DNA from: Variovorax sp. PBL-E5
GTDB taxonomy: Bacteria > Pseudomonadota > Gammaproteobacteria > Burkholderiales > Burkholderiaceae_C
Reading direction: 5' to 3'
NCBI RefSeq assembly: GCF_901827185.1
Contig: NZ_LR594671.1
Coordinates: forward strand, 1,488,001 to 1,552,000
DNA length: 64,000 nucleotides
The notes beneath the pieces are model-generated. The model made no database searches. It saw nothing but the letters and a program-made list of their open reading frames with translations, and had not been told where the DNA came from. Position numbers and translations under genes: made by a program. Below are positions 41,116-58,176 of this stretch, piece by piece. Within the stretch, counting starts at the first letter, position 1, and every line of letters starts with the position of its first letter.

Positions 41116-41861
41116 GCACCGCGAACGCGCCGCTGCTCGAAGTCGTCAATCTCGTCGTGCGCTACGGCAGTGCCCAGGCGCTGCACGGCATCTCGCTGAC
41201 CGTCGCGCCGCAGCAGATCGTCGCCGTGGTCGGCGCCAACGGCGCGGGCAAGACCACGCTGCTGCGCACGCTCTCGGGTCTCGTGCGACCCGCCGACGGT
41301 CACGTGCGCTTCAACGGCGAGAGCATTGCCGGACTCGCGGTGCACCGCATCGTGCAGCGCGGCATCTCGCACATCCCCGAAGGCCGCGGCATCCTGCCGA
41401 CGCTGTCGGTGAAGGAGAACCTGCGCCTGGGCGCCTACGTGCACGGCCGGCCCGACCCCGGACTCATGGCGAAGTTGGAGCAATGGTTCCCCGTGCTCTT
41501 CCGCCGCCACGATCAGCTGGCGGGGATGCTGTCCGGCGGCGAGCAGCAGATGCTCGCGATCTCGCGCGCGGTGCTGGCGCGCCCGCGCCTCGTGCTGATC
41601 GACGAACTCTCGCTCGGGCTCTCGCCCAAGGTCACCTCCGAGCTGGTGCCGCGCCTGCGCGACCTGCGCGACGCCGGTGCGAGCGTGCTGCTCGTGGACC
41701 AGAACATCCAGCAGGCACTGCGCGTGGCCGATCGCGTCTACGTCCTCGCCAACGGGCGCATCGCCTACAGCGGAACGCCCGACGAACTGCGCGCCGCCCC
41801 CGACCTCATGAGCACCTACCTGGGCGTGGAACTCGCGCCCCAGCCAAAGACCCCCGCATGA
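41112..41861 (+). CDS. Liv/HAAT-type ABC transporter ATP-binding protein (LivF-like)
   Basis: 249-residue ATPase. Walker A GANGAGKTT near residue 40, PEGRGILPTLSVKENL near residue 92, signature LSGGEQQMLAISRAV near residue 139 and Walker B RLVLIDELSLGLSP near residue 159 (Leu after DE where Pro is usual). Starts by a four-base overlap with the LivG-like gene and overlaps the SMP-30 gene the same way, tying transport to catabolism in one transcript. Confidence 0.94.
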   Translation: MSTANAPLLEVVNLVVRYGSAQALHGISLTVAPQQIVAVVGANGAGKTTLLRTLSGLVRPADGHVRFNGESIAGLAVHRIVQRGISHIPEGRGILPTLSVKENLRLGAYVHGRPDPGLMAKLEQWFPVLFRRHDQLAGMLSGGEQQMLAISRAVLARPRLVLIDELSLGLSPKVTSELVPRLRDLRDAGASVLLVDQNIQQALRVADRVYVLANGRIAYSGTPDELRAAPDLMSTYLGVELAPQPKTPA

Positions 41862-42802
41862 CAACCACTTCCGTCACCGTGCTGGCCAGCGGCCTGCAGT
41901 TCCCCGAAGGTCCGATCGCGATGCCGGACGGCAGCCTGCTGTTCGTCGAACTGCAGCGCGGGACGCTGAGCCGCATCTCTGCCGAAGGCGCATTCAGCGT
42001 CGTCGCCGAGCTCGGCGGCTCGCCGAACGGCGCGGCCATCGGCCCCGATGGCCGCTGCTATGTCTGCAACAACGGCGGCCTCACGTTCACCGAGCGTGAC
42101 GGTCACACCTATGCGGGCCTCGCGACCGACGACTACGAGGGCGGCTGGATCGACGTCGTCGACCACAGGACCGGCAAGCACGAACGCCTCTACACCGCCT
42201 GCGGCGACATCCCGCTGCGAGCGCCCAACGACATCGTGTTCGACCGCCACGGCGGCTTCTGGTTCACGGACATCGGCAAGGCCTTCAAGGGCAGGACCGA
42301 GCGCGACCGCGGCGCCGTCTACTACGCCAGGGCCGACGGCAGCATGATCCGCCGCGCCATCTTTCCGTTGGAAGGACCCAACGGCATCGGCCTTTCGCCG
42401 GACGAGCAGACGGTCTACGTGGCGGAGTCGCACACCGGCCGCGTCTGGGCCTTCCAGGTCGGCGAGCCGGGACACGTCGTGCGCCACCCGCATGCGAGCG
42501 TGTTCTGGGAGAAGGGCCACATGCTCTGGGCGCCCGACTACTACGCCATCCTCGACTCGCTCGCCATCGACGGCGACGGCAACGTCTGCGTGGCCGACAT
42601 TCCCACCGGAGGCATCACCGTCATCTCACCCGAAGGCCAGCGCATCGCGCAGTACCCGATGCCGGACCCGTTCACGACCAACATCTGCTTCGGCGGCGCG
42701 GACCGGCGCACGGCCTATATCACGCTTTCCTCAATGGGGCAGATCGTCTCGATGCCATGGCCGCGCGCGGGCCTCGCGCTCAACCATGCGGAGGCGGCAT
42801 GA
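41858..42802 (+). CDS. SMP-30/gluconolactonase family protein
   Basis: 314-residue six-bladed beta-propeller of the SMP-30/gluconolaconase/LRE family: calcium- or zinc-dependent lactone hydrolases. LQFPEGPI near residue 14 has the metal-binding Glu, CNNGG near residue 68, RAPNDIVFDRHGGFWFTD near residue 124 the Asn ligand, and ILDSLAIDGDGNVCVAD near residue 228 the catalytic Asp. Overlapped by its neighbours at both ends. A close paralogue lies at 50016 in the same run, suggesting two related lactone intermediates or one redundant step. Confidence 0.9.
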   Translation: MTTTSVTVLASGLQFPEGPIAMPDGSLLFVELQRGTLSRISAEGAFSVVAELGGSPNGAAIGPDGRCYVCNNGGLTFTERDGHTYAGLATDDYEGGWIDVVDHRTGKHERLYTACGDIPLRAPNDIVFDRHGGFWFTDIGKAFKGRTERDRGAVYYARADGSMIRRAIFPLEGPNGIGLSPDEQTVYVAESHTGRVWAFQVGEPGHVVRHPHASVFWEKGHMLWAPDYYAILDSLAIDGDGNVCVADIPTGGITVISPEGQRIAQYPMPDPFTTNICFGGADRRTAYITLSSMGQIVSMPWPRAGLALNHAEAA

Positions 42803-44124
42803 ACTTCCAGGCCGAACTCACCGCCAGGCGCGTGAGCGACGAGGGTCTGGGCTTCGTGCACGACGGTGCGCTCGTGTACCTGAACGGCGCGAGTGGCTTT
42901 CCGAACCGCTTCGCGCAGCGCCTCGCGGCCGAAGGCCGGCGTTTTCGCGACGTGCAGCTCTTCCACCCGATGCGCCGCGAGGTGCTGCCGCTGACGCCCG
43001 ATCTCGTGTCGGCCGATCTGGCCGGCCACCTGTTTCATGTCTCGGACTTCACCTACGACGAGAACGTGCGCACGGCCATCCGCGAAGGCCGCGCGAGCTA
43101 CCGCCCCAACCACGGCAGCGAATCGGGGCGGCGCTTTCCCTACGACATCGACGTCTTCGTCGCGGGCGCGACGCCGATGGACGAGCACGGCTATTTCAAT
43201 CTCGGCTCCTGGGGCGGGTGGGTGCCCGATTTCCTGCCGCGCGTGAAGAAGCTCGTGCTCGAGGTCAACCCGGCGCAGCCGCGCGTGCATGGCGACGTCA
43301 ATGTGCACATCAGCCAGGTGGCCGGCTTCTACGAAGCGGACTATCCGCTCGTGGAACTGCCGCAGGCCGGCGCCGCGCCGAGCGAGACGGAAAAGCGCAT
43401 CGCGACGCACATCGCGGCGCTGATCGAGGACGGCTCGACGCTGCAGGTCGGCGCGGGCAACCTGCCCGAAGCCGTGGTGCAGCTGCTCGTGACGGGCGGT
43501 GCGAAAGACCTTGGCGTGCATACCGAGGCCTACTTCGACTGGGTCGTGAGGCTCACCGAAGCGGGCGTCATCACCAACGCACGCAAGAGCCTCGACCGCG
43601 GCAGGATGATGGCCGCGATGGCGATCGGATCGAGCCGGCTGCACCGTTTTGTCGATCGCAATCCTTTCGCATGGTTTCGCGCCTTCTCCTATGTGAACGA
43701 CGTGCGCACCATCGCGGCCGGCTACCGGCCGGTGTCGATCAACGCCACGCTCGAGGTGGACCTGATGGGACAGTGCGCGTCCGAAGGCTTCGGCCACCTG
43801 CACCACAGCGGCGTCGGCGGCCAATGGAACTTCCACTACGGCGCGGCGCTTGCCGACGAGGGCAAGGGCATCATCGCCTTGTCCTCCACGGCGCGCGGCG
43901 GCACGGTGTCGCGCATCGTGCCCATGCTCGCCGCGGGCACGGCCGTGACCATTCCGCGCAACGACATCCACTGGGTCGTGACCGAATACGGCGCGGTCGA
44001 CCTGCGGGGCAAGTCGCTGCGCGACCGCGCGCGCCTGCTCATTTCCATCGCACATCCCCAATTCCGCGAATCCCTGGAGCGGGCCGCACGCAACGAAATG
44101 CACCTGCTGCCCGGGACGGCTTGA
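42799..44124 (+). CDS. Acetyl-CoA hydrolase/transferase family CoA-transferase
   Basis: 441-residue family I CoA-transferase of the acetyl-CoA hydrolase / 4-hydroxybutyrate CoA-transferase group. Key parts are GASGFPNRF near residue 31, LQVGAGNLPEAVV near residue 215, LGVHTEAYFDWVVRLTEAG near residue 238 with the probable catalytic Glu of HTE, and the C-terminal GGTVSRIVPML and DIHWVVTEYGAVDLRG. It would move CoA from a donor such as acetyl- or succinyl-CoA to the acid substrate, or recover CoA. Coupled to the lactonase gene; the ligase gene follows 14 bases later. Confidence 0.9.
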   Translation: MNFQAELTARRVSDEGLGFVHDGALVYLNGASGFPNRFAQRLAAEGRRFRDVQLFHPMRREVLPLTPDLVSADLAGHLFHVSDFTYDENVRTAIREGRASYRPNHGSESGRRFPYDIDVFVAGATPMDEHGYFNLGSWGGWVPDFLPRVKKLVLEVNPAQPRVHGDVNVHISQVAGFYEADYPLVELPQAGAAPSETEKRIATHIAALIEDGSTLQVGAGNLPEAVVQLLVTGGAKDLGVHTEAYFDWVVRLTEAGVITNARKSLDRGRMMAAMAIGSSRLHRFVDRNPFAWFRAFSYVNDVRTIAAGYRPVSINATLEVDLMGQCASEGFGHLHHSGVGGQWNFHYGAALADEGKGIIALSSTARGGTVSRIVPMLAAGTAVTIPRNDIHWVVTEYGAVDLRGKSLRDRARLLISIAHPQFRESLERAARNEMHLLPGTA

Positions 44125-44138
44125 GAACAGCACACGAC

Positions 44139-45761
44139 ATGCAGATCAACGGCAAGAACATTCCCTGGAAGACCCTCGGCGAGTTGCTCGAGGACAAGGC
44201 GGCGCGGCACGGCGGCAAGATGTTCGCCGAGATCGACGGCGTGCGCGTGAGCTACGTCGAGCTCGAGCGGCGATCGCGCCATGTCGCGGGCGGCCTGCTC
44301 GCGCTCGGCCTCGCACCGGGCGATCGTGTCGCAACCTTCATGCTCAATGCCCTCGAGCAATTGCTGGTGTGGTTCGGCACCGTGCGCGCAGGACTCGTGT
44401 GGGTGCCGCTCAACGCAGGCCTCGTGGGGCAGGACCTGCGCTACACGCTCACCAACTCGGGTGCGCGCGTACTCGTGGCAGACACCGAGAGTCTGCCGCA
44501 CTTTCTCGAAGTTGCGGCCCAGACGCAAATGCTCTCGCTCTACGTCGTCGCCGACGCAAAGACGGCCGCCGCCAGCGGCGCGCAACCGTATGCGGCGCTC
44601 GAAGCCGGCCCCCTGCCGACGACGCTCCCCGCCACGCGCGCCGAAGACCCGGGCGCCATCCTCTACACCGGCGGCACGACCGGGCTGCCCAAAGGCGTGG
44701 TGCTGCCGCAGTTCTCCTTCATCCTCTCGGGCGTGCGCTACGGCGAGTCCTTCTCCGTGCGCGCGGGCGAGCGTCATTACTCGACGATGCCGCTCTTCCA
44801 TGCGGGCGCACTCCAGTGGGGTTTGATGGGGCCGCTCGTGTGCGACATGAGCACGGTGATCGACCGCCGCTTCAGCGCCAGCCGCTACTTCGAGCGCGTG
44901 CGCGAAGTCGAGGCCAACGTGATCGACCCGCTCGGCGTGGTGCTGACCATGCTGTGCCGGCGGCCGCCGAGCCCGCAGGATCGCGAGCACAAGGTGCGTA
45001 TCAGCCTCGGCGCGACGCAGGGCCTGCCGTCGCACATCCCCGACGAATTCACCCGGCGCTTCGGCATTCCGCTCGTGATGGTCTACGGCCTCACCGAGGG
45101 CGGCGGCGCCATGCTCACCACCAATCGCGATCGCAAGGATGACTCCAATGGCAGCCCGCACGGCTGGGTGGAGTTGCGCATCCTCGACGAGGACGGCTTT
45201 CCGCTGCCGGATGGCGAAACCGGCAAGCTGGTGCTGCGCTCGAACTTCCCGTTCATGTTCATGACCGGCTACTGGAACGATCCCGCGCGCACGGCCCAGG
45301 TGCTCAAGGACGGTTGGCTGCACTCGGGCGACCTCGGTTGGCTGCAGGCGGATGGAAGGCTGCGCTTCATCGGCCGCGAAGCGCACTGGCTGCGCCGGCG
45401 CGGCGAGAACATCTCGGCCGTCGAAGTGGAGACCGTGCTGGCCAAGTGCCCGGGCGTGAAGGAAGTGGCCGTCGTCGCCGGCCCGTCGGAGATCGGCGAG
45501 GACGAGGTCAAGGCCTTCGTCGTGGCGGAGGAGGGCGCACAGCTCGCGCCGGCCGAACTTGTCGCATGGTGCGAAGACAAGCTGGCACCCTTCAAGGTAC
45601 CGCGCTTCGTGGAATTCATCGCGCTGCTGCCGCGTTCGGTGGCCAAGATGGAAATCGATCGCGCCGCCCTGCGCAAACGTCCCAACGACGCGGCCTGGGA
45701 TCGCGAACGGGAACAGCCGCGCGCCGCGCGCGGGAAGTCGTCACCGCCGGCCCAACAATAG
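44139..45761 (+). CDS. AMP-forming acyl-CoA ligase (CaiC-like)
   Basis: 540-residue ANL superfamily adenylating enzyme. The P-loop reads ILYTGGTTGLPKGVV near residue 175; VYGLTEGGG near residue 312 and HSGDLGWLQADGRLRFIGR near residue 396 hold the ATP and hinge motifs. The C terminus has LRRRGENISAVEVE and the catalytic Lys in RSVAKMEID, where Ala-Lys replaces Gly-Lys. The pattern is nearest to crotonobetaine/carnitine-CoA ligases. It activates the imported acid; having a CoA-transferase next door suggests two ways of thioesterification or two different acids. Confidence 0.92.
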   Translation: MQINGKNIPWKTLGELLEDKAARHGGKMFAEIDGVRVSYVELERRSRHVAGGLLALGLAPGDRVATFMLNALEQLLVWFGTVRAGLVWVPLNAGLVGQDLRYTLTNSGARVLVADTESLPHFLEVAAQTQMLSLYVVADAKTAAASGAQPYAALEAGPLPTTLPATRAEDPGAILYTGGTTGLPKGVVLPQFSFILSGVRYGESFSVRAGERHYSTMPLFHAGALQWGLMGPLVCDMSTVIDRRFSASRYFERVREVEANVIDPLGVVLTMLCRRPPSPQDREHKVRISLGATQGLPSHIPDEFTRRFGIPLVMVYGLTEGGGAMLTTNRDRKDDSNGSPHGWVELRILDEDGFPLPDGETGKLVLRSNFPFMFMTGYWNDPARTAQVLKDGWLHSGDLGWLQADGRLRFIGREAHWLRRRGENISAVEVETVLAKCPGVKEVAVVAGPSEIGEDEVKAFVVAEEGAQLAPAELVAWCEDKLAPFKVPRFVEFIALLPRSVAKMEIDRAALRKRPNDAAWDREREQPRAARGKSSPPAQQ

Positions 45762-45790
45762 GCGCTTGTCCACTTTTCCCCCGCACGAAC

Positions 45791-46804
45791 GTGAAAAAGA
45801 AATCCCCCCAGGACGCCGACTCCGCCGACAGCCGCCCACCGGGCAAGGCCAAGAGCCGCGTCGCCGAAGGCACCGCGCAGCACGTGATCGACTCGCGACG
45901 GCTCTTCTACTTCTATCACGTGGCGCGCCTGGGCAGTCTCACCACGGCGGAGGCGTACCTCGACATCGCGCAGTCGGCGATCAGCCGGCAGCTGCAGCAG
46001 CTCGAGTCCGACCTCGGCGTGCAATTGCTCGAACGCACCGGCCGCGGCGTCTCGCTCACCGACGTGGGCCGCGTGGTGTTCGAGAAGGCCAAGGGCATCC
46101 TCGACGAGATGTCCAACACCCGCAGCGAGATCGAGCTCTCGCAACGCCGGCCCAAGGGGCAGATCAGCTTCGCGGCACCCTCGATGTTCGTGCGCGGCTT
46201 CATGGGCCAGGTGGTCAGGCGCTTCGCGCAGCACTATCCCGACGTGCGCCTGCGCGTGATCGAAGCGGCGACCGGCCAGGTGGCCGAACTCGTGGCCGCG
46301 TCGGTGGTCGACCTGGGCATCGTCGTGCACGCGCCCAATTCGCCCAAGGTCGAGACCGAAGCGCTGTTGGTCGAGCACATGGACCTGGCCATGCGCGCGA
46401 GCGATCCGCTGGCCACGCGCAAGTCGATGGACCGCCACGAACTCAACGGCCTGCCTTTCATCCTGCCAGTCAATCCGCATGGCGCGCGCCTTCTGATGGA
46501 GCGCTACTTCGCGGCCGGCGGCATCGTGGTGGACACGCGGATCGAGATCGACTCGATGACGCTCCAGAAGGACACGGTCGCGAGCCTGTCGTACTACACG
46601 CTGCTCGCGCGCGGCGACTGCCGCCCCGAGGACGGCATCGCGAACGTGCCGCTGGTGCCGCCGCTGGAGCGTACCTCCTATCTCGCGCGCCTGCGCGACC
46701 GTGGTGACCAGCCGATGCTCGAGCCCTTCATCGAAGAACTGCGCAAGGCCGTGAAGGACTTGCACCCCGACAAGCGCAGCCGCGCCCGGCCCCACCAACG
46801 TTGA
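45791..46804 (+). CDS. LysR family transcriptional regulator inside the catabolic run
   Basis: 337 residues with a 37-residue charged N-terminal extension before the HTH (RRLFYFYHVARLGSLTTAEAYL, recognition helix in IAQSAISRQLQQLESD), then an effector domain of the CysB/Nac-like subgroup (FAAPSMFVRGFMGQVVRRF). The GTG at 45791 is taken as the start; there is no ATG before the HTH and no clear ribosome site. It lies 29 bases after the ligase gene in the same direction, so it is probably cotranscribed and regulates the whole run, perhaps through the palindrome at 37201-37215. Confidence 0.88.
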   Translation: MKKKSPQDADSADSRPPGKAKSRVAEGTAQHVIDSRRLFYFYHVARLGSLTTAEAYLDIAQSAISRQLQQLESDLGVQLLERTGRGVSLTDVGRVVFEKAKGILDEMSNTRSEIELSQRRPKGQISFAAPSMFVRGFMGQVVRRFAQHYPDVRLRVIEAATGQVAELVAASVVDLGIVVHAPNSPKVETEALLVEHMDLAMRASDPLATRKSMDRHELNGLPFILPVNPHGARLLMERYFAAGGIVVDTRIEIDSMTLQKDTVASLSYYTLLARGDCRPEDGIANVPLVPPLERTSYLARLRDRGDQPMLEPFIEELRKAVKDLHPDKRSRARPHQR

Positions 46805-46828: not shown

Positions 46829-48004
46829 TTGACCCGAGGCAACCGCAGCCCATGCATCGTCGGCATCGGCCAGAGTGAATTCAAGAAGTGGGGCGGCATC
46901 ATGGACCGCTCGCAGTTCCAGGTGACGGCGGAGGCGGTTCGCGCGGCCCTGGCCGATGCCGGCATCGCCGCGCGCGAGGTCGACGGCTTCACCTCGTTCT
47001 CCAACGACGCCAATGAGGCGCCCATGATGCACGTCTCCATCGGCGGCGAGGTGCTGCGCTTCTCGGGCATGGTCTGGGGCGGCGGCGGCGGCGGCAGCGC
47101 GGGCGGCGTCTCGATGGCGTACGCAGCGGTGGCGAGCGGGCAGGCCGACGTGGTGGTGGTCTACCGGGGCCTGTGCCAGGGCCAGTCGCGCCGCTTCGGC
47201 CGGTTCAACCATGCACGCGTGCAGGGCAACTTCGTCGCGCCCTACGGTCTGTTCGCGCCTTCGATGATGCTGGCGATGGTGATGCAGCGCTTCATGCACG
47301 ATCACGGCATCGGCCACGAGGCGATGGCGGAGATCGCGCTGAGCAACCGCGCGAATGCCAACCGCAATCCGAACGCGATCATGTACGACAAGCCGCTCAC
47401 GCGCGAGCAGTACTTCGCGGCGCGCTGGATCGCGGAACCCTTTCGCCTCTACGACTGCTGCCTGGAAAGCGACGGTGCCTGCGCGGTCGTGGTGACGACG
47501 AAGGAGCGCGCACGCGACCTCGACGTGAAGGCGGTGGACATCCTCTCGGCCGCGATGGGCAGCGGCCCCGGATGGGGCCAGGGCCCGCTCGCGAGCCACA
47601 ACATGCCGGCCGAAGACTACGCCTCCACCAACAGCCGTCGCCTCGCCAGGGAACTGTTCGCCAAGGCCGGCCTGGACCCCAAGGACATCGACGTGGCGCA
47701 GATCTACGACCACTTCTCCGGCCTCGTGCTGATGGCGCTGGAGGACTACGGCTTCTGCGCGCCGGGCGAGAGCGGCGAGTTCGTCGCGAGCGGCGCCATC
47801 CGCTGGCCCGACGGCAAGCTGCCGCTGAACACTTCGGGCGGCCAGCTCTCGGAAGCCTACGTGCATGGCATGAACCTCGTCATCGAAGGCGTGCGCCAGT
47901 TGCGCGGCACCTCCACTTCGCAGGTCGCGGACGCGCGCACCTGTCTCGTGACCGGTGGTCTCGGCGTGTCGCCGACCAGCGGCCTCATCCTCGGAGTTCA
48001 CTGA
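46829..48004 (+). CDS. Thiolase-fold protein lacking the nucleophilic Cys (SCP2/Ltp2-like, putative retro-aldolase)
   Basis: 391-residue thiolase-superfamily protein. Where thiolases carry the acyl-accepting Cys, this protein has a Gly stretch (GGGGGGSAGG, residues about 84-93), and the C terminus lacks the GGxxxGHPxG/Cys motif, reading NTSGGQLSEAYVHGM instead. IYDHFSGLVLMALEDYGFC near residue 292 is typical of Ltp2-like proteins that pair with DUF35 partners. TTG at 46829 is the start: AAGGAG lies 7 bases before it. The DUF35 gene follows by a TGATG overlap. A retro-aldol or acyl-CoA binding role is more likely than thiolysis. Confidence 0.88.
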   Translation: MTRGNRSPCIVGIGQSEFKKWGGIMDRSQFQVTAEAVRAALADAGIAAREVDGFTSFSNDANEAPMMHVSIGGEVLRFSGMVWGGGGGGSAGGVSMAYAAVASGQADVVVVYRGLCQGQSRRFGRFNHARVQGNFVAPYGLFAPSMMLAMVMQRFMHDHGIGHEAMAEIALSNRANANRNPNAIMYDKPLTREQYFAARWIAEPFRLYDCCLESDGACAVVVTTKERARDLDVKAVDILSAAMGSGPGWGQGPLASHNMPAEDYASTNSRRLARELFAKAGLDPKDIDVAQIYDHFSGLVLMALEDYGFCAPGESGEFVASGAIRWPDGKLPLNTSGGQLSEAYVHGMNLVIEGVRQLRGTSTSQVADARTCLVTGGLGVSPTSGLILGVH

Positions 48005-48432
48005 TGGCCTACTTTCCCCCCGAGATGCCGCGCGCCGAGCCGGACTTCAACGACCGCGACTACTGGGCCCGCCTCGGCAAGCGCGAACTGTGCTTCCAGG
48101 CCTGCGCGCAGTGCGGAACGCTGCGCCACCCGCCCGGTCCGATGTGCCCGACATGCCTTTCCACCGAGGTGAAATGGATCGAGGCGCCGCCGTCGGCCAC
48201 GCTCTTTTCCTTCACGGTCGTGCACCACGCAAGCCACCCGGCCGTCAGCGAAAAGCTCCCGTACGTCGTCGCGCTCGTCGAGTTCGACGGCATGCCGGGC
48301 GTGCGCCTGATCAGCAACCTCACCGACATCGATCCGAAGGCGGTGCGCATCGGCATGCCGCTTTCGCTCTGGTGGGACGACACGGGCGATGGCCAGATCG
48401 TTCCGCGCTTCCGGCCGGGGAGCGCGCCATGA
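48004..48432 (+). CDS. DUF35 OB-fold protein with zinc ribbon (partner of the thiolase-fold protein)
   Basis: 142 residues: an N-terminal rubredoxin-like zinc ribbon (CAQC near residue 36 and CPTC near residue 49) and a C-terminal OB fold (SFTVVHHASH onward). Such proteins form tight complexes with thiolase-superfamily proteins, for example the aldolase partners in steroid side-chain degradation and BbsA in benzoylsuccinyl-CoA cleavage. Coupled to the thiolase-fold gene by TGATG and to the aldehyde dehydrogenase gene by a four-base overlap, so aldolase and aldehyde oxidation are probably successive. Confidence 0.92.
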   Translation: MAYFPPEMPRAEPDFNDRDYWARLGKRELCFQACAQCGTLRHPPGPMCPTCLSTEVKWIEAPPSATLFSFTVVHHASHPAVSEKLPYVVALVEFDGMPGVRLISNLTDIDPKAVRIGMPLSLWWDDTGDGQIVPRFRPGSAP

Positions 48433-50015: not shown

Positions 50016-50972
50016 GTGAAACAAACATTGGTCCATGAAGTTCCCGGCCTGCGCAGAGTCACCTCCGGCCTGCGCTTTCCCGAGGGTCCGGTCGCGCTGG
50101 ACGACGGCAGCGTCCTCGTGGTCGAGATCGAAGGCAAGGCGCTGACCCGCGTGCTGCCGAACGGCAGCAAGGACGTCGTGGCGCAGCTCAGCGGCGGACC
50201 GAACGGCGCAGCGATCGGTCCGGACGGCCGCTGCTACATCTGCAACAACGGTGGCTTTTCGTTCCACAAGCGCGGCGACAAGACGCTGCCCGGGATCGCG
50301 CCCGACGACTACAGCGGGGGCTGGATCGAGGCGGTCGACCTGAAGACGGGCAAGAGCGAAGTGCTCTATCGCAACTGCGGCGACATTCAACTTCGCGGTC
50401 CCAACGACCTGGTATTCGACCAGCACGGCGGCTTCTGGTTCACCGACACCGGCAAGGTGATGGCGCGTCAGCGCGACCGCGGTGCGGTGTTCTATGCGCG
50501 CACCGACGGCTCGTTCATCAAGCAGGTCGTGTTCCCGCTCGATGGGCCGAACGGCGTCGGGCTCTCGCCGGACGACAGCACGCTGTACGTCGCGGAGTCA
50601 TGGTCGGGCCGCGTCTGGTCCTACCAGATCGCCGGCCCCGGCGAGATCAAGAAGGCGGTCGGGCCGGTGCCCTGGGAGCGCGGGCATCTGCTGCTCGGCA
50701 TCGGCGGCTACTCGGTCCTCGATTCGCTGGCGATCGACAGCGCGGGCAACGTGTGCGTGGCCGACATTCCTTATGGCGGCATCACGGTGATCTCGCCCGA
50801 GGGCGCGATCGTCGAGCAGTACGCGATGCCCGACATCTTCGTCACCAACATCTGCTTCGGCGGCAAGGACCTGCGGACGGCCTATATCACGCTGTCGTCG
50901 AGCGGGGAGCTGATGGCCATGGACTGGCCGCGCCCCGGGCTCGCGCTGCACTGGTTGAACCGCAGGGGCTGA
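50016..50972 (+). CDS. SMP-30/gluconolactonase family protein, second copy
   Basis: 318-residue beta-propeller lactonase, a clear paralogue of the protein encoded at 41858 (by eye well over half identical). LRFPEGPV near residue 17, CNNGG near residue 76, RGPNDLVFDQHGGFWFTD near residue 128 and VLDSLAIDSAGNVCVAD near residue 236 keep the metal ligands. GTG at 50016 is set by AAGGAG 7 bases before it. It starts a sub-block with the enoyl-CoA hydratase 16 bases downstream. Confidence 0.9.
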   Translation: MKQTLVHEVPGLRRVTSGLRFPEGPVALDDGSVLVVEIEGKALTRVLPNGSKDVVAQLSGGPNGAAIGPDGRCYICNNGGFSFHKRGDKTLPGIAPDDYSGGWIEAVDLKTGKSEVLYRNCGDIQLRGPNDLVFDQHGGFWFTDTGKVMARQRDRGAVFYARTDGSFIKQVVFPLDGPNGVGLSPDDSTLYVAESWSGRVWSYQIAGPGEIKKAVGPVPWERGHLLLGIGGYSVLDSLAIDSAGNVCVADIPYGGITVISPEGAIVEQYAMPDIFVTNICFGGKDLRTAYITLSSSGELMAMDWPRPGLALHWLNRRG

Positions 50973-50988: not shown

Positions 50989-51765
50989 ATGACGATGTTG
51001 ACGCTGGAAACGCGCGCCAATGTTCTGGTCGCGACGCTGAATCGCAATCTCCAGAACACGATCGACGGCGCGCTGGCCGATGCGATCGAGCATGCACTGA
51101 CGGAGTCGGAGCGGCTCGGTGCCGCCGCGCTGCACCTGCGGACCGCGACGGCGCATTTCTGCGGGGGGGCCGATCCGGCACGCGTCGCACAGTGGCTGGG
51201 CGAGCGGGGCGGCGAGGCCCTGCGTGGCGACGGCGACCGGTGGGATCGGCTGTTCCGGCGCATCGAGCGAAGCCCGACCATCGCCTTCGCGGAAGTGAAA
51301 GGCAATGCACTGGGCGCCGGTCTCGGGCTGGCGCTGGCCTGCGACCTGCGCATGCTGTCCGCGAGCTCGCGCATCGGCGCGCCGGAAGTCAGGGTGGGCC
51401 TGCTGCCCGCCGGCAGGACGGTCGATCGGCTGGTCGGCCTGGCCGGCACGGTGGTCGCGCAAAGGCTGCTGCTCGGCGGCGACCTCGTCGATGGCCTGGA
51501 AGCCCATCGTCTCGGCCTGGCCCATTGGATCGCACCTGACAATGAACTGGAAGATCGCGCCGCTGCAACCGTCGCGCGCATTGCGGAGCAGTCGCCGATC
51601 GCATTGCGCGAAGCAAAGCGGCTTTTGGCCGCGGTACACCGGCGCGGCGCAGACGATTCTGCCGATGTCGAGATCGCGGCATTCGATCACCTTATTCACA
51701 GCCACGAAGCACGCGAGAGAATCCGCGCGCTGCTCGAACGACTTGCCAAGCGCGAGCCGAAATAG
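50989..51765 (+). CDS. Enoyl-CoA hydratase/isomerase family protein
   Basis: 258-residue crotonase. The oxyanion hole is formed by HFCGGADPAR near residue 62 and GNALGAGLGLALACDLR near residue 104; PEVRVGLLPAGRTVDRL near residue 130 holds the usual catalytic Glu region. It hydrates or isomerises an unsaturated acyl-CoA of the pathway. Last gene of the plus-strand run; a 214-base gap to the convergent LacI gene has no strong hairpin that I can see. Confidence 0.9.
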   Translation: MTMLTLETRANVLVATLNRNLQNTIDGALADAIEHALTESERLGAAALHLRTATAHFCGGADPARVAQWLGERGGEALRGDGDRWDRLFRRIERSPTIAFAEVKGNALGAGLGLALACDLRMLSASSRIGAPEVRVGLLPAGRTVDRLVGLAGTVVAQRLLLGGDLVDGLEAHRLGLAHWIAPDNELEDRAAATVARIAEQSPIALREAKRLLAAVHRRGADDSADVEIAAFDHLIHSHEARERIRALLERLAKREPK

Positions 51766-51979: not shown

Positions 51980-52990
51980 TCAACGCGCCCGCGCGCAGGA
52001 CCGGCCGAGGATCAAGTCCGAGGGAATGAGCACCGTGCGGGGTTCCTTCGGCGCGCGCTTCTCCACGCGTTCCAGCATGAGTTTCATCGCCGCCGCCGCG
52101 CTCTGGTGGTAGTTGGCGCGAAGCGCGGTCACGGGCGGGTACATCAGCTCCAGCGTCTCGAGCGTACCGATTCCGACAACGGAAACATCGCCGGGAATGT
52201 CGAGGCCCGCTTCGCGGATCACGTGCACCGCGCCCGAGAGCAGTTGGGTTCCGACTGCGATGATCGCCGTCGGCGGCGCGTCGAGCTTCAACATGTGCTG
52301 CATCGGCACGCGCGACGACTCGAGCCACGAATCGCCGATGTGGACGAGTCGCTCGTCATGCGCGAGCCCGGCCGATTCGAGCGCCGCGCGATAACCCCGC
52401 AGCTTCTCGCGGCCGGGCCGCATGCCGCGGCCCGAAGCGAACAACGCAACGCGCCGGTGACCGAGCGACAGCAGGTATTCCATCACCTGTCGGATGCCGG
52501 CGCAGTGGTCGATCAGCACGCTGTCGAAGCCGGGGCCCAGGTCGCGGTCGACGATCACGCAAGGCAACGGCGTCACGGCGAACGGCGACCCCGCCGGGTC
52601 CGTGTATTCGTTCGAAGGCGACGCGATGATGCCTTCGAGCCGCCGGTTCTCGAAGAAGGCGACGAGTTCCTTGTCCCGCTCCGGCCGCTCGGAGCTGCCG
52701 ACCAGCAGCGAATAGCCCGCGGCCTGCGCAAGTCGCTCAACTTCGCTCAGGTGGATCGCCAGGTAGGGGTTGGCTATGTTGGGCAGCAGGTAGCCGATCG
52801 TTCGACTGCGGCCGCCGCGCAAGTGACGGGCCGTGAAGTCGGGCTGGTAGCCCAGGCGCGCGGCCGCCTGCTGCACGCGCAGACGCACATCCGCGCTCGC
52901 ATAACCGCTGCTGTTCAACACGCGCGAGACGGTACCGATCGAGACGCCGGCTTCCGCCGCCACCTCCCGCACAGAGATCCGCTGCGTCAT
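51980..52990 (-). CDS. LacI family transcriptional regulator
   Basis: 336 residues: N-terminal LacI HTH (ISVREVAAEAGVSIGTVSRV, residues about 4-23) with the hinge helix near residues 48-57 (TARHLRGGRS), then a periplasmic-binding-like effector domain beginning IGYLLPNIANPYLA. Divergent from the acyl-CoA ligase module with two TGGAAACGTTTTCA-type palindromes in the gap, so it very probably represses that module and itself. The effector is unknown; it may be an acid or a CoA ester rather than a sugar. Confidence 0.93.
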   Translation of the reverse strand: MTQRISVREVAAEAGVSIGTVSRVLNSSGYASADVRLRVQQAAARLGYQPDFTARHLRGGRSRTIGYLLPNIANPYLAIHLSEVERLAQAAGYSLLVGSSERPERDKELVAFFENRRLEGIIASPSNEYTDPAGSPFAVTPLPCVIVDRDLGPGFDSVLIDHCAGIRQVMEYLLSLGHRRVALFASGRGMRPGREKLRGYRAALESAGLAHDERLVHIGDSWLESSRVPMQHMLKLDAPPTAIIAVGTQLLSGAVHVIREAGLDIPGDVSVVGIGTLETLELMYPPVTALRANYHQSAAAAMKLMLERVEKRAPKEPRTVLIPSDLILGRSCARAR

Positions 52991-53002
52991 GGTTTACCCG
53001 GA

Positions 53003-53015: not shown

Positions 53016-53057
53016 CAGGATTGCCGCTTCTTTGCAGTTTCCCTATCGTAGTGCATC

Positions 53058-53071: not shown

Positions 53072-53078
53072 CAAATCG

Positions 53079-53222
53079 ATGAGCGACATCTCCTTCTCCC
53101 CCCGCCACTTCCTGCAGGCGCTCGGCGCCTTCGCCGCCGCGCAGGCCCTGCTTTCTTTGGCCGGCGAATGGCCCGAGCGCGGCGTCGTCTTCGTGCGAGC
53201 CAGCGGCGCCGCGGGGGAATAG
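53079..53222 (+). CDS. Possible 47-residue leader ORF before the acyl-CoA ligase
   Basis: ATG at 53079, TAG at 53220-53222, product beginning MSDISFSPRHFLQALGAFAA. It has a hydrophobic middle and no recognisable family. GGGGGA inside its last codons is the ribosome site for the ligase GTG at 53224, one base after its stop, so translation of the two may be coupled. No ribosome site of its own is seen. It may be a leader peptide or a chance frame in the untranslated leader. Confidence 0.3.
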   Translation: MSDISFSPRHFLQALGAFAAAQALLSLAGEWPERGVVFVRASGAAGE

Positions 53223-53223
53223 C

Positions 53224-54780
53224 GTGCAATTGATCGACATGTTCGACCGTGGCGCGGGATACGGTCTCGAGGCTCCTTGCCTCACCGAGCCCGGCGGCCG
53301 CACGCTCAATTACGGCGAGGTGCAGCAACTCTCGCATCGCATCGCCAACGGCCTGCATTCCGCGGGCATCGGACGCGGGAGCAAGGTGGGCCTGCTGAGT
53401 GCCAACCATCTGCTCACCTTTGCAGCCATTCTCGGCATCGTGCGCTCCAACGGCATCTGGCTGCCGGTGAACGCACGCAACGCGCCGGAAGAAAACGCGA
53501 ACATCCTCGCGCGCGGCGGCTGCGAGTTCCTGTTCGTGCACAGCCAGTTCGCGGCACAGTTGCCGCTGCTGCGCGAAGCGATGCCGAACCTCAAGGGCAT
53601 CGTGTGCATCGACGGCGAACTGCCGGGCGTGCCGCCGCTCGAAGCCTGGGCCGGGCGGCACCCGGCGACACCTGTGCGCAGCGATGCGCGGCCGGACGAC
53701 GTCATCGCGATCCGCGGCACCGGCGGTACGACAGGCCTGCCCAAGGGCGTGCTCATCACGCATCGCAACTACGCGATGCTGTTCGCCAACTGGTATGCCG
53801 CGATGCCGATCACCGAGCGGCCGGTGCACCTCGTGGTCGCACCGCTGACGCATGCGGCGGGCTCGGTTGCGTTCGCCGCCTGCGGCTACGGCGGCGCCAA
53901 TGTGATCCTGCCATCCGCCGATCCGGCCGCGATCGTCGACGCGATCTCCCGCTATCGCGTGACGCAACTCTTCCTGCCGCCGACGGCGATCTACAAGCTC
54001 CTCGCGCATGACGGCGTGCGCAAGGGCGACTACGCCTCGCTCAAGTACTTCGTGTACTCCGCCGCGCCGATGTCGGTGGACAAGCTGCGCGAAGCGCTCG
54101 ACCTGTTCGGGCCGGTGATGGTGCAGGCGTACGGTCAGGCCGAAGCGCCCTTCGTCTGCACGGTGATGAACGCGGACGACCATGCGCGCGTGCTGCGCGA
54201 CCCGGCGCTCGCGCATCGCCTCTCGAGTTGCGGAAGACCCTCGCCCTTTGTACGCATCGGCGTGATGGACAGCGATGGCAGGCTGCTGACCGCGGGCGAG
54301 CGCGGCGAAATCGTGGTCCAGGGCGACCTCGTCATGAAGGGCTACTACCAGGACCCGGAGAAGACGGCCGAGGCGATGAAGCACGGCTGGCTGCACACGG
54401 GCGATGCCGGCTACCAGGATGCCGACGGCTATTTCTACATCGTCGACCGTCTGAAGGACCTGATCGTCTCCGGCGGCTTCAACATCTCGCCCGGTGAAGT
54501 CGAGCAGGTGCTGTGGTCGCTGCCCGCCGTGGGCGACTGCGCGGTGGTCGGCGTGCCGGATGCGCATTGGGGCGAGGCGGTCAAGGCGATCGTGGAGCTG
54601 AAGCCCGGCGCCGCGTGGGACGGCGAGGCGGCATTGAGCTTCTGCCGCGACAAGCTGGGCGCCATGAAGGCGCCGAAGACCATCGAGGTGTGGGAGCAGT
54701 TGCCGCGCAGCGCCGTGGGCAAGGTGCTCAAGCGCGAGATCCGGGAACGCTACTGGGCTGGCCAGTCGCGCCGCGTCTGA
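53224..54780 (+). CDS. AMP-forming acyl-CoA ligase
   Basis: 518-residue ANL enzyme. P-loop GTGGTTGLPKGVLITH near residue 163, QAYGQAEAPF near residue 301, HTGDAGYQDADGYFYIVDR near residue 392, KDLIVSGGFNISPGEVE and the catalytic Lys in SAVGKVLKREI near residue 502. It activates an acid to its CoA ester at the head of the LacI-controlled module. It is a more canonical enzyme than the ligase at 44139 and the two are not close duplicates. GTG start at 53224 behind GGGGGA. Confidence 0.92.
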   Translation: MQLIDMFDRGAGYGLEAPCLTEPGGRTLNYGEVQQLSHRIANGLHSAGIGRGSKVGLLSANHLLTFAAILGIVRSNGIWLPVNARNAPEENANILARGGCEFLFVHSQFAAQLPLLREAMPNLKGIVCIDGELPGVPPLEAWAGRHPATPVRSDARPDDVIAIRGTGGTTGLPKGVLITHRNYAMLFANWYAAMPITERPVHLVVAPLTHAAGSVAFAACGYGGANVILPSADPAAIVDAISRYRVTQLFLPPTAIYKLLAHDGVRKGDYASLKYFVYSAAPMSVDKLREALDLFGPVMVQAYGQAEAPFVCTVMNADDHARVLRDPALAHRLSSCGRPSPFVRIGVMDSDGRLLTAGERGEIVVQGDLVMKGYYQDPEKTAEAMKHGWLHTGDAGYQDADGYFYIVDRLKDLIVSGGFNISPGEVEQVLWSLPAVGDCAVVGVPDAHWGEAVKAIVELKPGAAWDGEAALSFCRDKLGAMKAPKTIEVWEQLPRSAVGKVLKREIRERYWAGQSRRV

Positions 54781-54796
54781 AACCAAGGAAACGAAT

Positions 54797-55597
54797 ATGG
54801 CCGATCGGCTGAAGGGCAAGACCGTGCTGGTGCTGGGCGCCGGCTGCGTGGGCGAAGGTTGGGGCAACGGCAACGCCGCCGCCGCGACCTTCGCGCGCCA
54901 AGGCGCGAACGTGGTGTGCGCCGACATGAACGAGGAGGCGGCCGCCAGCACGGCGGAACTCGTGCGCAAGGAGGGCCGCGAGGCGCTGCACCTGCGCACC
55001 GACGTCTGCGTGGCCGACGACGTCAACCGTGCCGTCGCGCTCACGGTCGAGAAGTTCGGCCGCATCGACGTGCTGCACAACAACGCGGGCATCAGCGACC
55101 GTGCCGGCCCCGTGGACGGCACCGAGGAAAACTGGGACCGCGTGTTCGACGTCAACGCCAAGGGCGCGTTCCTCGCCTGCAAGGCCGCGATTCCGTACAT
55201 GCAGCGCCAAGGCGGCGGCTCGATCGTGCACATCTCGTCGATCGCGTCGATCGGCTGGACAGGCCATCCGATGCTCTCCTACCAGGCATCGAAGGCGGCG
55301 CTCAACCAGCTCACGCGCATGGTGGCCGTGCAGCACGCGGCGCAGAACATCCGCTGCAACTGCATCCTGCCCGGGCTGATCGATTCGCCGCGCATCTACT
55401 CGACGATCCTGCCGGTGTTCGGCGGCGATGTGGAAGAGATGCGCGCCTCGCGCGCCAAAGCCGTTCCGATGCAGCGTATGGGCGACGTATGGGACGTGGC
55501 GAACGCCGCGCTCTTCTTCGCGTCCGACGAAGCGAAGTACGTCACCGGCGTGGTGATGGCCGTGGACGGCGGCATCACCTGCTCGCTGCCGCACTGA
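54797..55597 (+). CDS. SDR family oxidoreductase
   Basis: 266-residue short-chain dehydrogenase. The nucleotide site is a variant, LGAGCVGEGWGNG (residues about 12-24), in place of TGxxxGxG; NNAGISDRAG near residue 94, catalytic Ser in HISSIASIG near residue 149 and Tyr-Lys in YQASKAAL near residue 163. ADMNEEAA after strand 2 (Asp) favours NAD. It would oxidise a hydroxyacyl-CoA before cleavage by the thiolase-fold protein encoded next. Confidence 0.92.
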   Translation: MADRLKGKTVLVLGAGCVGEGWGNGNAAAATFARQGANVVCADMNEEAAASTAELVRKEGREALHLRTDVCVADDVNRAVALTVEKFGRIDVLHNNAGISDRAGPVDGTEENWDRVFDVNAKGAFLACKAAIPYMQRQGGGSIVHISSIASIGWTGHPMLSYQASKAALNQLTRMVAVQHAAQNIRCNCILPGLIDSPRIYSTILPVFGGDVEEMRASRAKAVPMQRMGDVWDVANAALFFASDEAKYVTGVVMAVDGGITCSLPH

Positions 55598-55602
55598 AAC
55601 CT

Positions 55603-56775
55603 ATGACGCAGCGTCATCCCGCCTTCATCGCGGGCGCGTTCGAGCACCCGACGCGCTTCGCGCCCGACAAGTCCATCGCCCAGTTGCACGCCGAGTGCGC
55701 GCGCGGCGCACTCGCCGATGCGGGCCTCAGCTTCGACGATGTCGACGGCTACTTCTGTGCGGCCGACGCGCCCGGCGGCATCCCCGCGCTGATGGCCGAC
55801 TACCTGAACCTCACGAAGCTGACGCACGTGAACGGCACGGAGTCGGGCGGCTGCTCGTACATCGCGCATGTGGGCCACGCGGCCGACGCCATCGCGCGGG
55901 GCAGGTGCTCGGTGGCACTCGTCACGCTCGCGGGCAAGCCGCGGAGCAGCGGCCAGGCCACCGGCACCGAGATCCGCCAGATCCCGGCCGAGCGGCCCGC
56001 GGCGCCGTTCGAGCAGCCCTGCGCGTGGAGCGTCGCCGGCATGTACGGCCTGCTCGCGCGCCGGCATATGTACGAATACGGCACGACCATGGAGCAACTC
56101 GCCTGGGTGAAGGTCGCGGCCTCGCACCATGCGCAGCACAACCCGCATGCGCAACTGCGCAAGGTGTTCACGACCGAGGACGTGCTTGCCTCGCCGCTCG
56201 TGGCCGACCCGCTGCGACGCGGCGACTGCTGCGTGATCACCGACGGCGGCGGCGCGCTCGTGATCGTCAAACCGGAGATCGCGAAGGCGCTGAAGCGCCC
56301 GCGGGTGGGCGTGCGCGGCTTCGCCGAGACGATCCGCACCAACGAAGCCGGGCGCCTCGACCTGCTGCAGACCGGCGCCGCCGTGACCGGCCCGCGTGCC
56401 TTCGCGGACGCCGGCCTCACGCCCGCCGACGTGAAGTACGCGTCCGTCTACGACAACTTCACCATCATGGTCGCGATGCAACTCGAGGACCTCGGCTTCT
56501 GCGCCAAAGGCGAGGGCGGTCGCTTCGTCGCCGACGGCAACCTGATTTCCGGCAGCGGCAAGCTGCCATGGAACACCGACGGTGGCGGCATGTGCAACAA
56601 CCATCCGCAGAACCGCGGCGGACTCACCAAGGTGATCGAGGCCGTGCGCCAGCTGCGTGGCGAGGCGCATCCCGCCGTGCAGGTGCCGAACTGCGACATC
56701 GCCCTCGCGAGCGGTCCGGGCCTCGTGATGGGCGCGGGCCATGCGCACGCCACCGTCCTGCTGGAGCGTTTGTGA
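55603..56775 (+). CDS. Thiolase-fold protein, second copy (pairs with DUF35 protein)
   Basis: 390-residue thiolase-superfamily protein related to but clearly divergent from the one at 46829. Here the active-site loop reads NGTESGGCSYIAHVG, with Cys 84 at or next to the thiolase nucleophile position, so thiolysis is not excluded. SVYDNFTIMVAMQLEDLGFC near residue 287 and NTDGGGMCNNHPQNRGG near residue 325 are family traits. Five bases after the SDR gene, and TGATG-coupled to the DUF35 gene. Probably cleaves a 3-keto- or 3-hydroxyacyl-CoA. Confidence 0.88.
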   Translation: MTQRHPAFIAGAFEHPTRFAPDKSIAQLHAECARGALADAGLSFDDVDGYFCAADAPGGIPALMADYLNLTKLTHVNGTESGGCSYIAHVGHAADAIARGRCSVALVTLAGKPRSSGQATGTEIRQIPAERPAAPFEQPCAWSVAGMYGLLARRHMYEYGTTMEQLAWVKVAASHHAQHNPHAQLRKVFTTEDVLASPLVADPLRRGDCCVITDGGGALVIVKPEIAKALKRPRVGVRGFAETIRTNEAGRLDLLQTGAAVTGPRAFADAGLTPADVKYASVYDNFTIMVAMQLEDLGFCAKGEGGRFVADGNLISGSGKLPWNTDGGGMCNNHPQNRGGLTKVIEAVRQLRGEAHPAVQVPNCDIALASGPGLVMGAGHAHATVLLERL

Positions 56776-57170
56776 TGAGCGATTCGACATTGCAATCCGA
56801 TCCCTATGTCGCCGCCTTTCCCGAGCTGCTGCCGTTCTGGGAAGCCACCGCGCGCGGCGTGCTGCTGCTGCCACGCTGCCGCGCCTGTGGGCAGGTGCAC
56901 TGGCATCCGCGCGCGCAGTGCCCCGAGTGCCGCAGCGACGACCTCGAGTGGATCGAGGCCAGGGGCCGCGGCGTGCTGCACACCTTCACGCTCGTGCGCC
57001 GCCCGAGCGAGAACACGCTGCTTGCGTACGTGCGCATCGACGAAGGCCCGTTGCTGATGACGAACATCGTGGGCGCGGAGCCCGACGCCCTTCGCATCGG
57101 CATGCCGATGCAGGTGGACTTCCGCGCCACGCCGGAGGGCCGCATCGCGCCGGTGTTCCGCCCCGCTTGA
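56775..57170 (+). CDS. DUF35 OB-fold protein with zinc ribbon, second copy
   Basis: 131 residues: zinc ribbon with CRAC near residue 35 and CPEC near residue 49, then an OB fold (GVLHTFTLVRRPSEN onward). Its ATG shares a base with the thiolase-fold stop, so the two are made in equal amounts, as expected for a complex. Same domain order as the copy at 48004 but low similarity outside the ribbon, so the two modules diverged long ago. Confidence 0.92.
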   Translation: MSDSTLQSDPYVAAFPELLPFWEATARGVLLLPRCRACGQVHWHPRAQCPECRSDDLEWIEARGRGVLHTFTLVRRPSENTLLAYVRIDEGPLLMTNIVGAEPDALRIGMPMQVDFRATPEGRIAPVFRPA

Positions 57171-57192
57171 ACCGATATCAACAGGAGACGAC

Positions 57193-58176
57193 ATGAATTT
57201 CACGACTCGCACCTTGTCGCGCCGCCGCGTGCTGCTCGGCGCGGCCGCGGCCACCCTCGCCGCCCCCGCGTTCAGCCAAGGCACGTACCCGAACAAGCCG
57301 ATCCGCCTCATCGTGCCTGCGGCCGCGGGCGGCGCTACCGACATCATCGGCCGCCTCATCGCGCAGAAGGTCAGCCAATCCTGGCCGCAACCGATGATCG
57401 TGGAAAACCATGCGGGCGCCGCCGGCGTGATCGGCACGCAGATCGTCGCGCGCGCCCCGGCCGACGGCTACACGATCCTGATGGGCGCGATCAACCACAC
57501 CATCAATGCGAGTCTGATGGAGAAGCTGCCCTACGACTCAGTCAAGGACTTCACCTTCATCTCGCACGTGGTGTCGATTCCGAACGTACTCGTGGTGAAT
57601 CCGGAGAAGGTGCCGTCGAAGACGGTCGCCGAGTTCATCGCGTACGCGAAGTCGAACGACAAGCTGGTGTTCGGATCCTCCGGCAACGGCACCTCGCAGC
57701 ACCTCGCGGCCGAGATGTTCCGGATGGACACCGGCGCGAAGTACCTGCACGTGCCGTACAAGGGCGCGGCCCTGGCGATCAACGACCTGCTCGGCGGCCA
57801 CGTGGACCTGATGTTCGACAACCTGCCTTCGGCGGCGGAGAACATCCGCGCGGGCAAGTTGCGCGCGCTCGGCGTGACCAGCGCCACGCGCAGCCCCGCC
57901 TTCCCCGACTTGCCTGCGATCGCCGAGACCGTGCCGGGCTTCGACGTGCGTTCCTGGTTCGGTCTGATCGGCCCGGCGAACCTGCCGAAGGACGTCGTGG
58001 ACAAGCTGTACGCCGAGATGGTGAAGATCTTCGCGATGCCCGACGTGAAGGAGCGGCTCGCCACGCTCGGCGCCGATGCGCAGGTGACCTCGCCCGTGCA
58101 GTTCGACACCTACGTGCACCAGGAAATGGGCCGCTGGGCGAAGGTGGTCAAGGCCTCGGGCGCCAAGGTGCAGTAG
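57193..58176 (+). CDS. Bug family tripartite tricarboxylate transporter substrate-binding protein
   Basis: 327-residue periplasmic solute-binding protein. The signal has twin Arg (SRRRVLLGAAAATLAAPAFSQ), which hints at Tat export. Then YPNKPIRLIVPAAAGGATDIIG and VENHAGAAGVIGTQIVARAP, the two Bug loops that hold carboxylate ligands. Last gene of the LacI-controlled module, 22 bases after the DUF35 gene; presumably it captures the acid that the ligase activates. No TctA/TctB genes nearby. Confidence 0.92.
   Translation: MNFTTRTLSRRRVLLGAAAATLAAPAFSQGTYPNKPIRLIVPAAAGGATDIIGRLIAQKVSQSWPQPMIVENHAGAAGVIGTQIVARAPADGYTILMGAINHTINASLMEKLPYDSVKDFTFISHVVSIPNVLVVNPEKVPSKTVAEFIAYAKSNDKLVFGSSGNGTSQHLAAEMFRMDTGAKYLHVPYKGAALAINDLLGGHVDLMFDNLPSAAENIRAGKLRALGVTSATRSPAFPDLPAIAETVPGFDVRSWFGLIGPANLPKDVVDKLYAEMVKIFAMPDVKERLATLGADAQVTSPVQFDTYVHQEMGRWAKVVKASGAKVQ

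Follow-up and report, generated by a model that had tools for sequence, protein, structure and literature searches.

The window analysed here, a stretch of 64,000 nucleotides from Variovorax sp. PBL-E5 (contig NZ_LR594671.1, positions 1,488,001 to 1,552,000), is part of a 7.09-Mb genome in four contigs and carries two gene rows on the + strand, spanning 37288-58176, which were delimited from the list of open reading frames (ORFs), Pfam matches and the sequence itself (Table 1). Each row includes a gene for a thiolase-fold protein, designated Thl1 or Thl2, followed by a gene for a DUF35 protein, designated DUF35a or DUF35b. The first row consists of genes for a solute-binding protein, LivHMGF, an SMP-30 lactonase, a coenzyme A (CoA)-transferase, an acyl-CoA ligase, a LysR regulator, Thl1, DUF35a, an aldehyde dehydrogenase (ALDH), a second SMP-30 lactonase and a crotonase, and the second, with a divergent LacI gene in front of it, of genes for an acyl-CoA ligase, a short-chain dehydrogenase/reductase (SDR), Thl2, DUF35b and a Bug receptor. 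Junctions were read from the DNA: stop and start codons overlap as TGATG in Thl1/DUF35a (48002-48006) and Thl2/DUF35b (56773-56777), and ATGA overlaps occur at four joints (LivG/LivF, LivF/SMP-30, SMP-30/CoA-transferase and DUF35a/ALDH); the start codon of Thl1 is TTG, with AAGGAGA just upstream. ORFs, Pfam assignments and junctions agree with an earlier note on this DNA as to the genes, their order and the TGATG pairing of both sets, and Pfam likewise places CoA-activating enzymes next to both pairs, as that note had said; the extent it gave, 41858..58176, holds the genes as described but omits the start of the first cluster, whose importer begins at 37288.

Sequences, site residues, conservation and gene order were read directly. 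Thl1 was compared with the best 80 of at least 560 confirmed loci and with 120 listed proteins of 7,809 matches. Its best solved relative is Ltp2 of Thermomonospora curvata (TcLtp2; 6ok1, E 2e-82), which aligned over nearly the full length with both catalytic Tyr residues matched, and that of DUF35a is the ChsH2-DUF35 chain of the same structure (E 9e-28); at these values the matches are not due to chance. In the excerpted text of PMC12329534, Tyr294 in the YDHF motif of TcLtp2 is described as the base, Tyr344 as the acid and the His of YDHF as the oxyanion hole, and CtSal is stated to have Gly where the thiolase nucleophile sits. Thl1 carries Gly in the nucleophile column, YDHF and the second Tyr, which is residue 344 in its own numbering as well. 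The earlier note had read Gly instead of the nucleophilic Cys and an Ltp2-type retro-aldolase site in this protein, and the alignment bore out both, since the Gly, the Tyr of YDHF and Tyr344 all matched 6ok1. Gly at the nucleophile position and Tyr in the 344 column were found together in 80/80 loci and in 120/120 of the proteins listed; the first Tyr, within YDxF or YENF, was kept in 200/200 relatives, and YDHF itself in 51 of the 80 loci and 118 of the 120 listed proteins. In 76 of the 80 loci, the Thl1 gene has a DUF35 gene no more than 1.5 kb away (the other four being L035, L036, L039 and L052).

Thl2 was compared with 120 listed relatives of 7,998 matches and with 29 loci, one each from 29 of 36 genomes, among which the PBL-E5 genome is represented by its paralogue. 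The nearest solved structure is 4u4e (E 2e-72), the best solved relative of DUF35b is the ChsH2 DUF35 chain of 6ok1 (E 9e-18), and a DUF35 gene stands beside Thl2 in all 29 loci. The nucleophile column is occupied by Gly83 in Thl2 and by Gly in 120/120 relatives listed, by which a Cys thiolase is ruled out. The earlier note had set Thl2 apart from Thl1 by a Cys in the site or close to it, a contrast that did not hold: Cys84 lies one residue after the nucleophile position and is replaced by Ser, Gly or Ala in 11 of the 120 relatives. YDNF was found in 117 and His334 in all of the 120, and at the position where the aligned Cys thiolases have His, Thl2 retains the Tyr that known aldolases carry. 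Both Thl1 and Thl2 thus lack the thiolase nucleophile, with different residue constellations. Against NCBIfam, Thl2 scored 689.8 bits with NF006010 (PRK08142, thiolase domain-containing protein; cut-off, 462). An AlphaFold model of Thl2 (22 sequences; mean predicted local distance difference test score (pLDDT), 76.2) matched 4u4e best, then the aldolases 6ok1 and 9myr, and then thiolases; the model of Thl1 (mean pLDDT, 74.7) is weak at the site loops.

In a tree of 43 rows, the Thl1 family formed a clade (99/97) that was sister, at 96/89, to the Ltp2 clade (96/89), which holds TcLtp2, a protein of plasmid pIBU218 and a paralogue from the PBL-E5 genome (L148); these two together with an Aromatoleum plasmid protein formed a clade at 100/97. 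Thl2 grouped with 4u4e at 97/97, and IpfD and CtSal, both on long branches, were not firmly placed. The identity of Thl1 to TcLtp2 is 43.7%, as against 61-64% between the Ltp2 of C. testosteroni and actinobacterial Ltp2 (excerpt of PMC12502768), and Thl1 falls below the cut-off of the NCBIfam lipid-transfer protein family PRK07855 (427 of 469 bits). On these sequences, the Thl1 family is sister to Ltp2 and does not lie within its clade. The pIBU218 protein belongs to a second thiolase-fold/DUF35 pair beside the ipf genes of that plasmid (L147, 2939-4503), is 59% identical to TcLtp2, and is accompanied by CaiB and crotonase-like genes near IS6100.

What is said below of complex formation, chemistry, substrates, step order and a shared route is what we infer from these readings. 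Thl1-DUF35a and Thl2-DUF35b are predicted to carry out aldol-type C-C cleavage (or formation) next to a CoA thioester, a prediction for the two pairs together to which we incline with some confidence; taken singly, aldolase chemistry appears highly probable for Thl1 and an even call for Thl2. Acids would enter via the Liv importer and Bug receptors, the SMP-30 lactonases perhaps opening lactones to give them, and would be turned into CoA thioesters by the ligases and the CoA-transferase. In Thl1, Tyr293 of YDHF would accept the proton of the 3-hydroxyl and His295 would hold the thioester oxygen, and Tyr344 would give the proton back to the enolate, yielding acetyl- or propionyl-CoA and a carbonyl compound; in Thl2, the first Tyr would be Tyr283, and Asn285 would substitute for His/Cys and His334 for Tyr344. 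The crotonase, SDR and ALDH would act either before or after cleavage. According to the excerpts of the two papers, Ltp2 releases a ketone (PMC12502768) and IpfD a catechol (PMC9195938). Both act at a tertiary alcohol carbon, as measured for Ltp2 and, for IpfD, on which the evidence is genetic and from metabolites, as deduced from the dihydrodiol described; a ketone-type product is therefore predicted, and ALDH is left to an earlier or later step. ALDH may act before CoA activation, since in a Variovorax plasmid cluster with Thl2 (LacI-ligase-TctC-Thl2-DUF35-ALDH-TctC-GMC-TctC-SDR) it accompanies a GMC oxidoreductase. The earlier note had proposed retro-aldol cleavage followed by aldehyde oxidation: the Ltp2-type site of Thl1 speaks for the first half, and the second is weakened by the products of Ltp2 and IpfD, which have the Tyr pair of Thl1, by the position of ALDH near GMC in Variovorax and by its absence from the row described next.

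On a contig of a Rhodoferax metagenome-assembled genome (L009), which begins inside Thl2, Thl2 (91% identity) and DUF35b stand directly before importer genes whose LivHMGF products are 74-83% identical to those of the window, and the row continues with lactonase, CoA-transferase, ligase, Thl1 (80-81%), DUF35a, lactonase and crotonase, without LysR and ALDH. Six of the 80 Thl1 loci have nearby a Thl2-type gene with 40% identity or more: L009; L024 (a Burkholderiales metagenome-assembled genome), with a MaoC-type hydratase and an SDR between Thl1-DUF35a and the Thl2-type gene; and L042, L043, L049 (Acidimicrobiia) and L079 (filed as Acidobacteriota), with the Thl2-type gene directly behind Thl1-DUF35a. 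The Thl1 of L079 is very close to those of Acidimicrobiia, and this locus may be misbinned. There is partial support for a link between the modules, and a route shared by Thl1 and Thl2 is a serious possibility that we place somewhat short of even. Equally to be considered are independent pathways that are neighbours by chance and look related only through the common fold, a reading that we also hold a little below even: module 2 has its own divergent LacI regulator and stands alone, with the LacI, ligase, SDR and Bug genes, in G136 and G295, two genomes without a Thl1 match at E 1e-100, and at that threshold, among 299 genomes of the family, 36 had a Thl2 match and six a Thl1 match (own genome included in both). 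No Thl1-type gene was found in the 25 kb read of the Variovorax plasmid. The six loci with both genes, the L009 row among them, speak against independence. Among 399 genomes of the order, no Thl1 copy at E 1e-150 was found apart from that of PBL-E5 itself, and the best match outside it among the 299 genomes of the family was 50% identical (E 1.1e-120). In a genome of the same genus (G122; L127 and L128), another catabolic region holds a Thl1-like (48%) and a Thl2-like (65%) pair, separated by about 18 kb.

Several observations weigh against the prediction of aldolases. The ALDH gene is not conserved, and was rejected as a core part because it is missing from L009, the sole other locus met with the same gene set; neither module has an acyl-CoA dehydrogenase or MaoC hydratase gene to supply the 3-hydroxyl, as judged by Pfam of the cluster genes; and site loops 80-83 and 328-337 of the Thl2 model have pLDDT below 50, for which reason the model was used for the fold only. 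Cys331 of Thl2 is kept in 120/120 relatives listed, and the His-Pro motif resembles the GHP of thiolases. The SDR gene directly precedes Thl2 in the window, and in L125 and L126 one more gene stands between the two; of the 29 Thl2 loci, 13 had an SDR and five a MaoC-type hydratase among the neighbours that were classified, so that a beta-oxidation step on 3-oxoacyl-CoA would also be suited. Thl2 could accordingly be no aldolase but a thiolase or another C-C enzyme without the usual nucleophile, using for instance Cys331 and the equally invariant His334 on 3-oxoacyl-CoA from the SDR. We regard this as rather unlikely, given the invariant Gly at the nucleophile position, the aldolase-type Tyr, and the Ser that fills the column of Cys331 both in 4u4e and in the tandem relatives from Acidimicrobiia and Acidobacteriota.

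A route like that of ibuprofen, in which dioxygenation of an aryl-alkanoyl-CoA would be followed by release of the side chain by Thl1, leaving a catechol, is improbable. IpfD, which was read from pIBU218 and identified by its position between dioxygenase and CoA-ligase genes, carries Gly at the nucleophile position, YDAF and a second Tyr in the alignment, and thus shares the pattern of Thl1; no Rieske oxygenase or ring-cleavage gene was found among the annotated genes of 37288-58176, the rest of the genome not having been searched for a partner oxygenase, and IpfE is without the zinc Cys pairs that DUF35a keeps in its sequence. A Delftia lacustris plasmid (L146) carries a Thl1 relative with DUF35 beside genes for a Rieske protein, a CoA transferase and a protocatechuate 3,4-dioxygenase, which favours such a route, and a second copy of the Rieske-CoA transferase-thiolase row starting 13 kb further; these rows have the look of an Ipf-type route for aryl side chains. 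That the side chain of a steroid or bile acid is degraded here, with true Ltp2 and Sal, is most improbable, for although the fold, the Tyr pair of Thl1, the DUF35 partner, the acyl-CoA ligases and ALDH are as in cholate side-chain degradation, Thl1 stands apart from Ltp2 in identity and clade as set out above, the cluster has no acyl-CoA dehydrogenase, MaoC or MaoC-DUF35 fusion gene, and no KshA_C match was found in the genome (a weak control, only one of 14 control genomes having matched, below the cut-off).

To view DUF35-paired thiolase-fold genes more widely, 57 DUF35 loci, one per genome by best DUF35 score, were taken from 151 matches that lie outside the PBL-E5 genome, in its family and phylum (89 and 63 from two scans, one shared). 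A thiolase-fold frame was found in 56 of the 57, and 54 were readable at the site, which held Gly in 52, Glu in one (probably a shifted alignment) and Cys in one; among the 52, L252 is poorly aligned and may carry Cys. In the PBL-E5 genome, 8/8 DUF35 genes have a thiolase-fold gene within 0.4 kb, and in all eight of these the site reads Gly-Gly and the Tyr of YDxF/Y is present, whereas the three readable paralogues without DUF35 have Cys and HDCF (a fourth paralogue was too incomplete to read, and two weak matches were left out). The thiolase-fold neighbours of DUF35 genes are thus mostly without the Cys, in about 52 of 54 readable loci; known exceptions with both Cys and DUF35 are BbsAB, PhlABC and the archaeal thiolase-HMGCS. 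The Thl2 pattern, Tyr in YDxF with His in the 344 column, was found in 38 of the 54. We tentatively put forward, as doubtful but worth pursuing, that thiolase-fold aldolases include a third class, as yet uncharacterised, to which Thl2 would belong and whose site would combine a first Tyr with Asn, Ser or Ala and then His, and lack a nucleophilic Cys. Of the types paired with DUF35, this would be the most frequent among the sampled Pseudomonadota; here and in loci of other phyla it would work in sequence with a Tyr/Tyr aldolase of Ltp2-like kind, so that two pieces are removed from a non-steroid acid. If so, most DUF35-paired 'acetyl-CoA acetyltransferases' would be misnamed aldolases; many public records name both families acetyl-CoA acetyltransferase or thiolase (domain-containing) protein. 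Were both families aldolases, a widespread group of catabolic enzymes would have been misread, and aldolase chemistry would extend far past steroids and ibuprofen. With its Tyr/Asn/His site, Thl2 would be a clear test case for a change of chemistry in the thiolase fold, and the paired loci supply a concrete gene set for assay. A search of open-licence literature found no description of this cluster or of the Tyr/Asn/His site, in line with the earlier note, which had called the route undescribed.

Table 1. Genes of the two rows, with positions in the window
Feature	Positions	Strand	Basis
ABC importer solute-binding protein (Peripla_BP_6)	37288..38487	+	Pfam E 1e-61
LivH, LivM, LivG (40351-41115), LivF (41112-41861): importer permeases and ATPases	38497..41861	+	reading frames, recognised by sequence; no family call
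SMP-30/gluconolactonase-type lactonase 1	41858..42802	+	PF08450 E 5e-49
acetyl-CoA hydrolase/transferase-type CoA-transferase	42799..44124	+	PF13336 E 3e-54
AMP-forming acyl-CoA ligase 1	44139..45761	+	PF00501 E 2e-65
LysR-type regulator (start uncertain)	45749..46804	+	PF03466, PF00126
Thl1, thiolase-fold, Ltp2-like catalytic set (Gly at nucleophile, Y293-D-H-F, Tyr344)	46829..48004	+	6ok1_A E 2e-82, alignment
DUF35a, zinc ribbon CxxC-x10-CxxC and OB fold, 142 aa	48004..48432	+	PF01796, PF12172; 6ok1_B E 9e-28
ALDH, missing in L009	48429..49931	+	PF00171 E 2e-163
SMP-30-type lactonase 2	50016..50972	+	Pfam; 7ris/8djf E 3e-105
crotonase-family protein	50989..51765	+	PF00378 E 2e-31
LacI-type regulator, divergent from module 2	51980..52990	-	PF00356, PF13377; counterparts 79-80% in L125, L126
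AMP-forming acyl-CoA ligase 2	53224..54780	+	PF00501 E 6e-71
SDR	54797..55597	+	PF13561 E 9e-63
Thl2, thiolase-fold, Gly83 at nucleophile, Y283-D-N-F, C331, H334-P	55603..56775	+	4u4e E 2e-72; NF006010
DUF35b, zinc ribbon CxxC-x10-CxxC and OB fold, 131 aa	56775..57170	+	Pfam; 6ok1_B E 9e-18
TctC/Bug-type solute receptor	57193..58176	+	PF03401 E 3e-75

Among the NCBIfam families shown, curated cut-offs were passed only by Thl2 and by the SDR (broad subfamily NF005559, 222 of 215 bits); the ligases, CoA-transferase, ALDH, lactonases, crotonase and Thl1 all remained below. Ligase 1 had no solved relatives at E 1e-60. Lactonase 2 is 62% identical to lactonase 1 over its residues 9-309, and the literature search turned up no paper on the nearest solved structures of the lactonases (7ris, 8djf). 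Relatives of lactonase 1 (52-56% identity) were found in seven other genomes, in one of which (L204) ALDH and Liv-type importer genes lie nearby, and no thiolase-fold or DUF35 gene was recognised near these seven in the stretches read; neither solved relatives nor lactonase 1 neighbourhoods gave a lead to the substrate, and the lactonases were dropped as a pointer to it. Neighbours of the Thl1 and Thl2 loci were classified by best BLAST matches to a small self-made reference set. Within 6 kb in 18 loci with Thl1 of at least 65% identity, these were CaiB-type CoA-transferase (11), LysR (11), amidohydrolase-2 (6), TctC (6), P450 (4) and ALDH (4), and from this variety the gene setting of the window is one of several. 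A TMEM175-type potassium channel family protein is encoded at 35925-36569 (-). Between module 2 and genes recognised by sequence as acyl-CoA carboxylase carboxyltransferase and biotin carboxylase/carrier (60224-63859), positions 58459-60142 encode a mycothiol maleylpyruvate isomerase N-terminal/DinB-type protein and then a phosphatidylglycerol lysyltransferase C-terminal-type protein, and the next 20 kb past the window (L129) hold branched-chain-type importer genes and another acyl-CoA ligase. The carboxylase and L129 genes are possibly a third catabolic row, or serve assimilation of the released acyl-CoA.

Among known systems, 4u4e, a putative thiolase of Sphaerobacter thermophilus, resembles Thl2 in Gly at the nucleophile position, YDSF and His-Pro, but the Asn285 and Cys331 columns are both occupied by Ser in it. 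The SCP2-type and archaeal thiolases (7yvy, 6esq) and BbsAB (7pxp) have the same overall fold, 6esq and BbsAB with DUF35-type partners. The nucleophilic Cys of 7yvy was aligned with Gly in Thl1, Thl2 and 320 relatives (80 loci and 120 + 120 listed proteins); 6esq and BbsAB, which were outside this alignment, we take to have the Cys also. The non-steroid IpfD-IpfE step of ibuprofen degradation, described as a retro-aldolase in the excerpt of PMC9195938, has the Gly/Tyr/second Tyr set in common with Thl1, not with Thl2, and a CoA ligase in its cluster, but IpfD is only 30% identical to Thl1, Rieske oxygenase genes are present there, and IpfE differs as noted above. The bile-acid aldolase Sal-Shy(DUF35) (9myr; PMC12329534, excerpt) shares the fold, Gly at the nucleophile position, the Tyr of YDxF/Y and the DUF35 partner, and differs in YDCY with catalytic Cys304 and in Gln352 at the place of Tyr344, where Thl1 has YDHF/Tyr and Thl2 YDNF/His. 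Closest to Thl1 is the steroid retro-aldolase Ltp2-ChsH2(DUF35) (6ok1; excerpts of PMC12329534 and PMC12502768), with which Thl1 shares the fold, Gly at the nucleophile position, YDHF, Tyr344 and a DUF35 partner with a C4 zinc ribbon; what sets Thl1 apart from it is the identity of 44%, the place in a sister clade, a DUF35 that stands alone with no MaoC, and the non-steroid setting, and Thl2 keeps the first Tyr of Ltp2 but has His at the place of the second.

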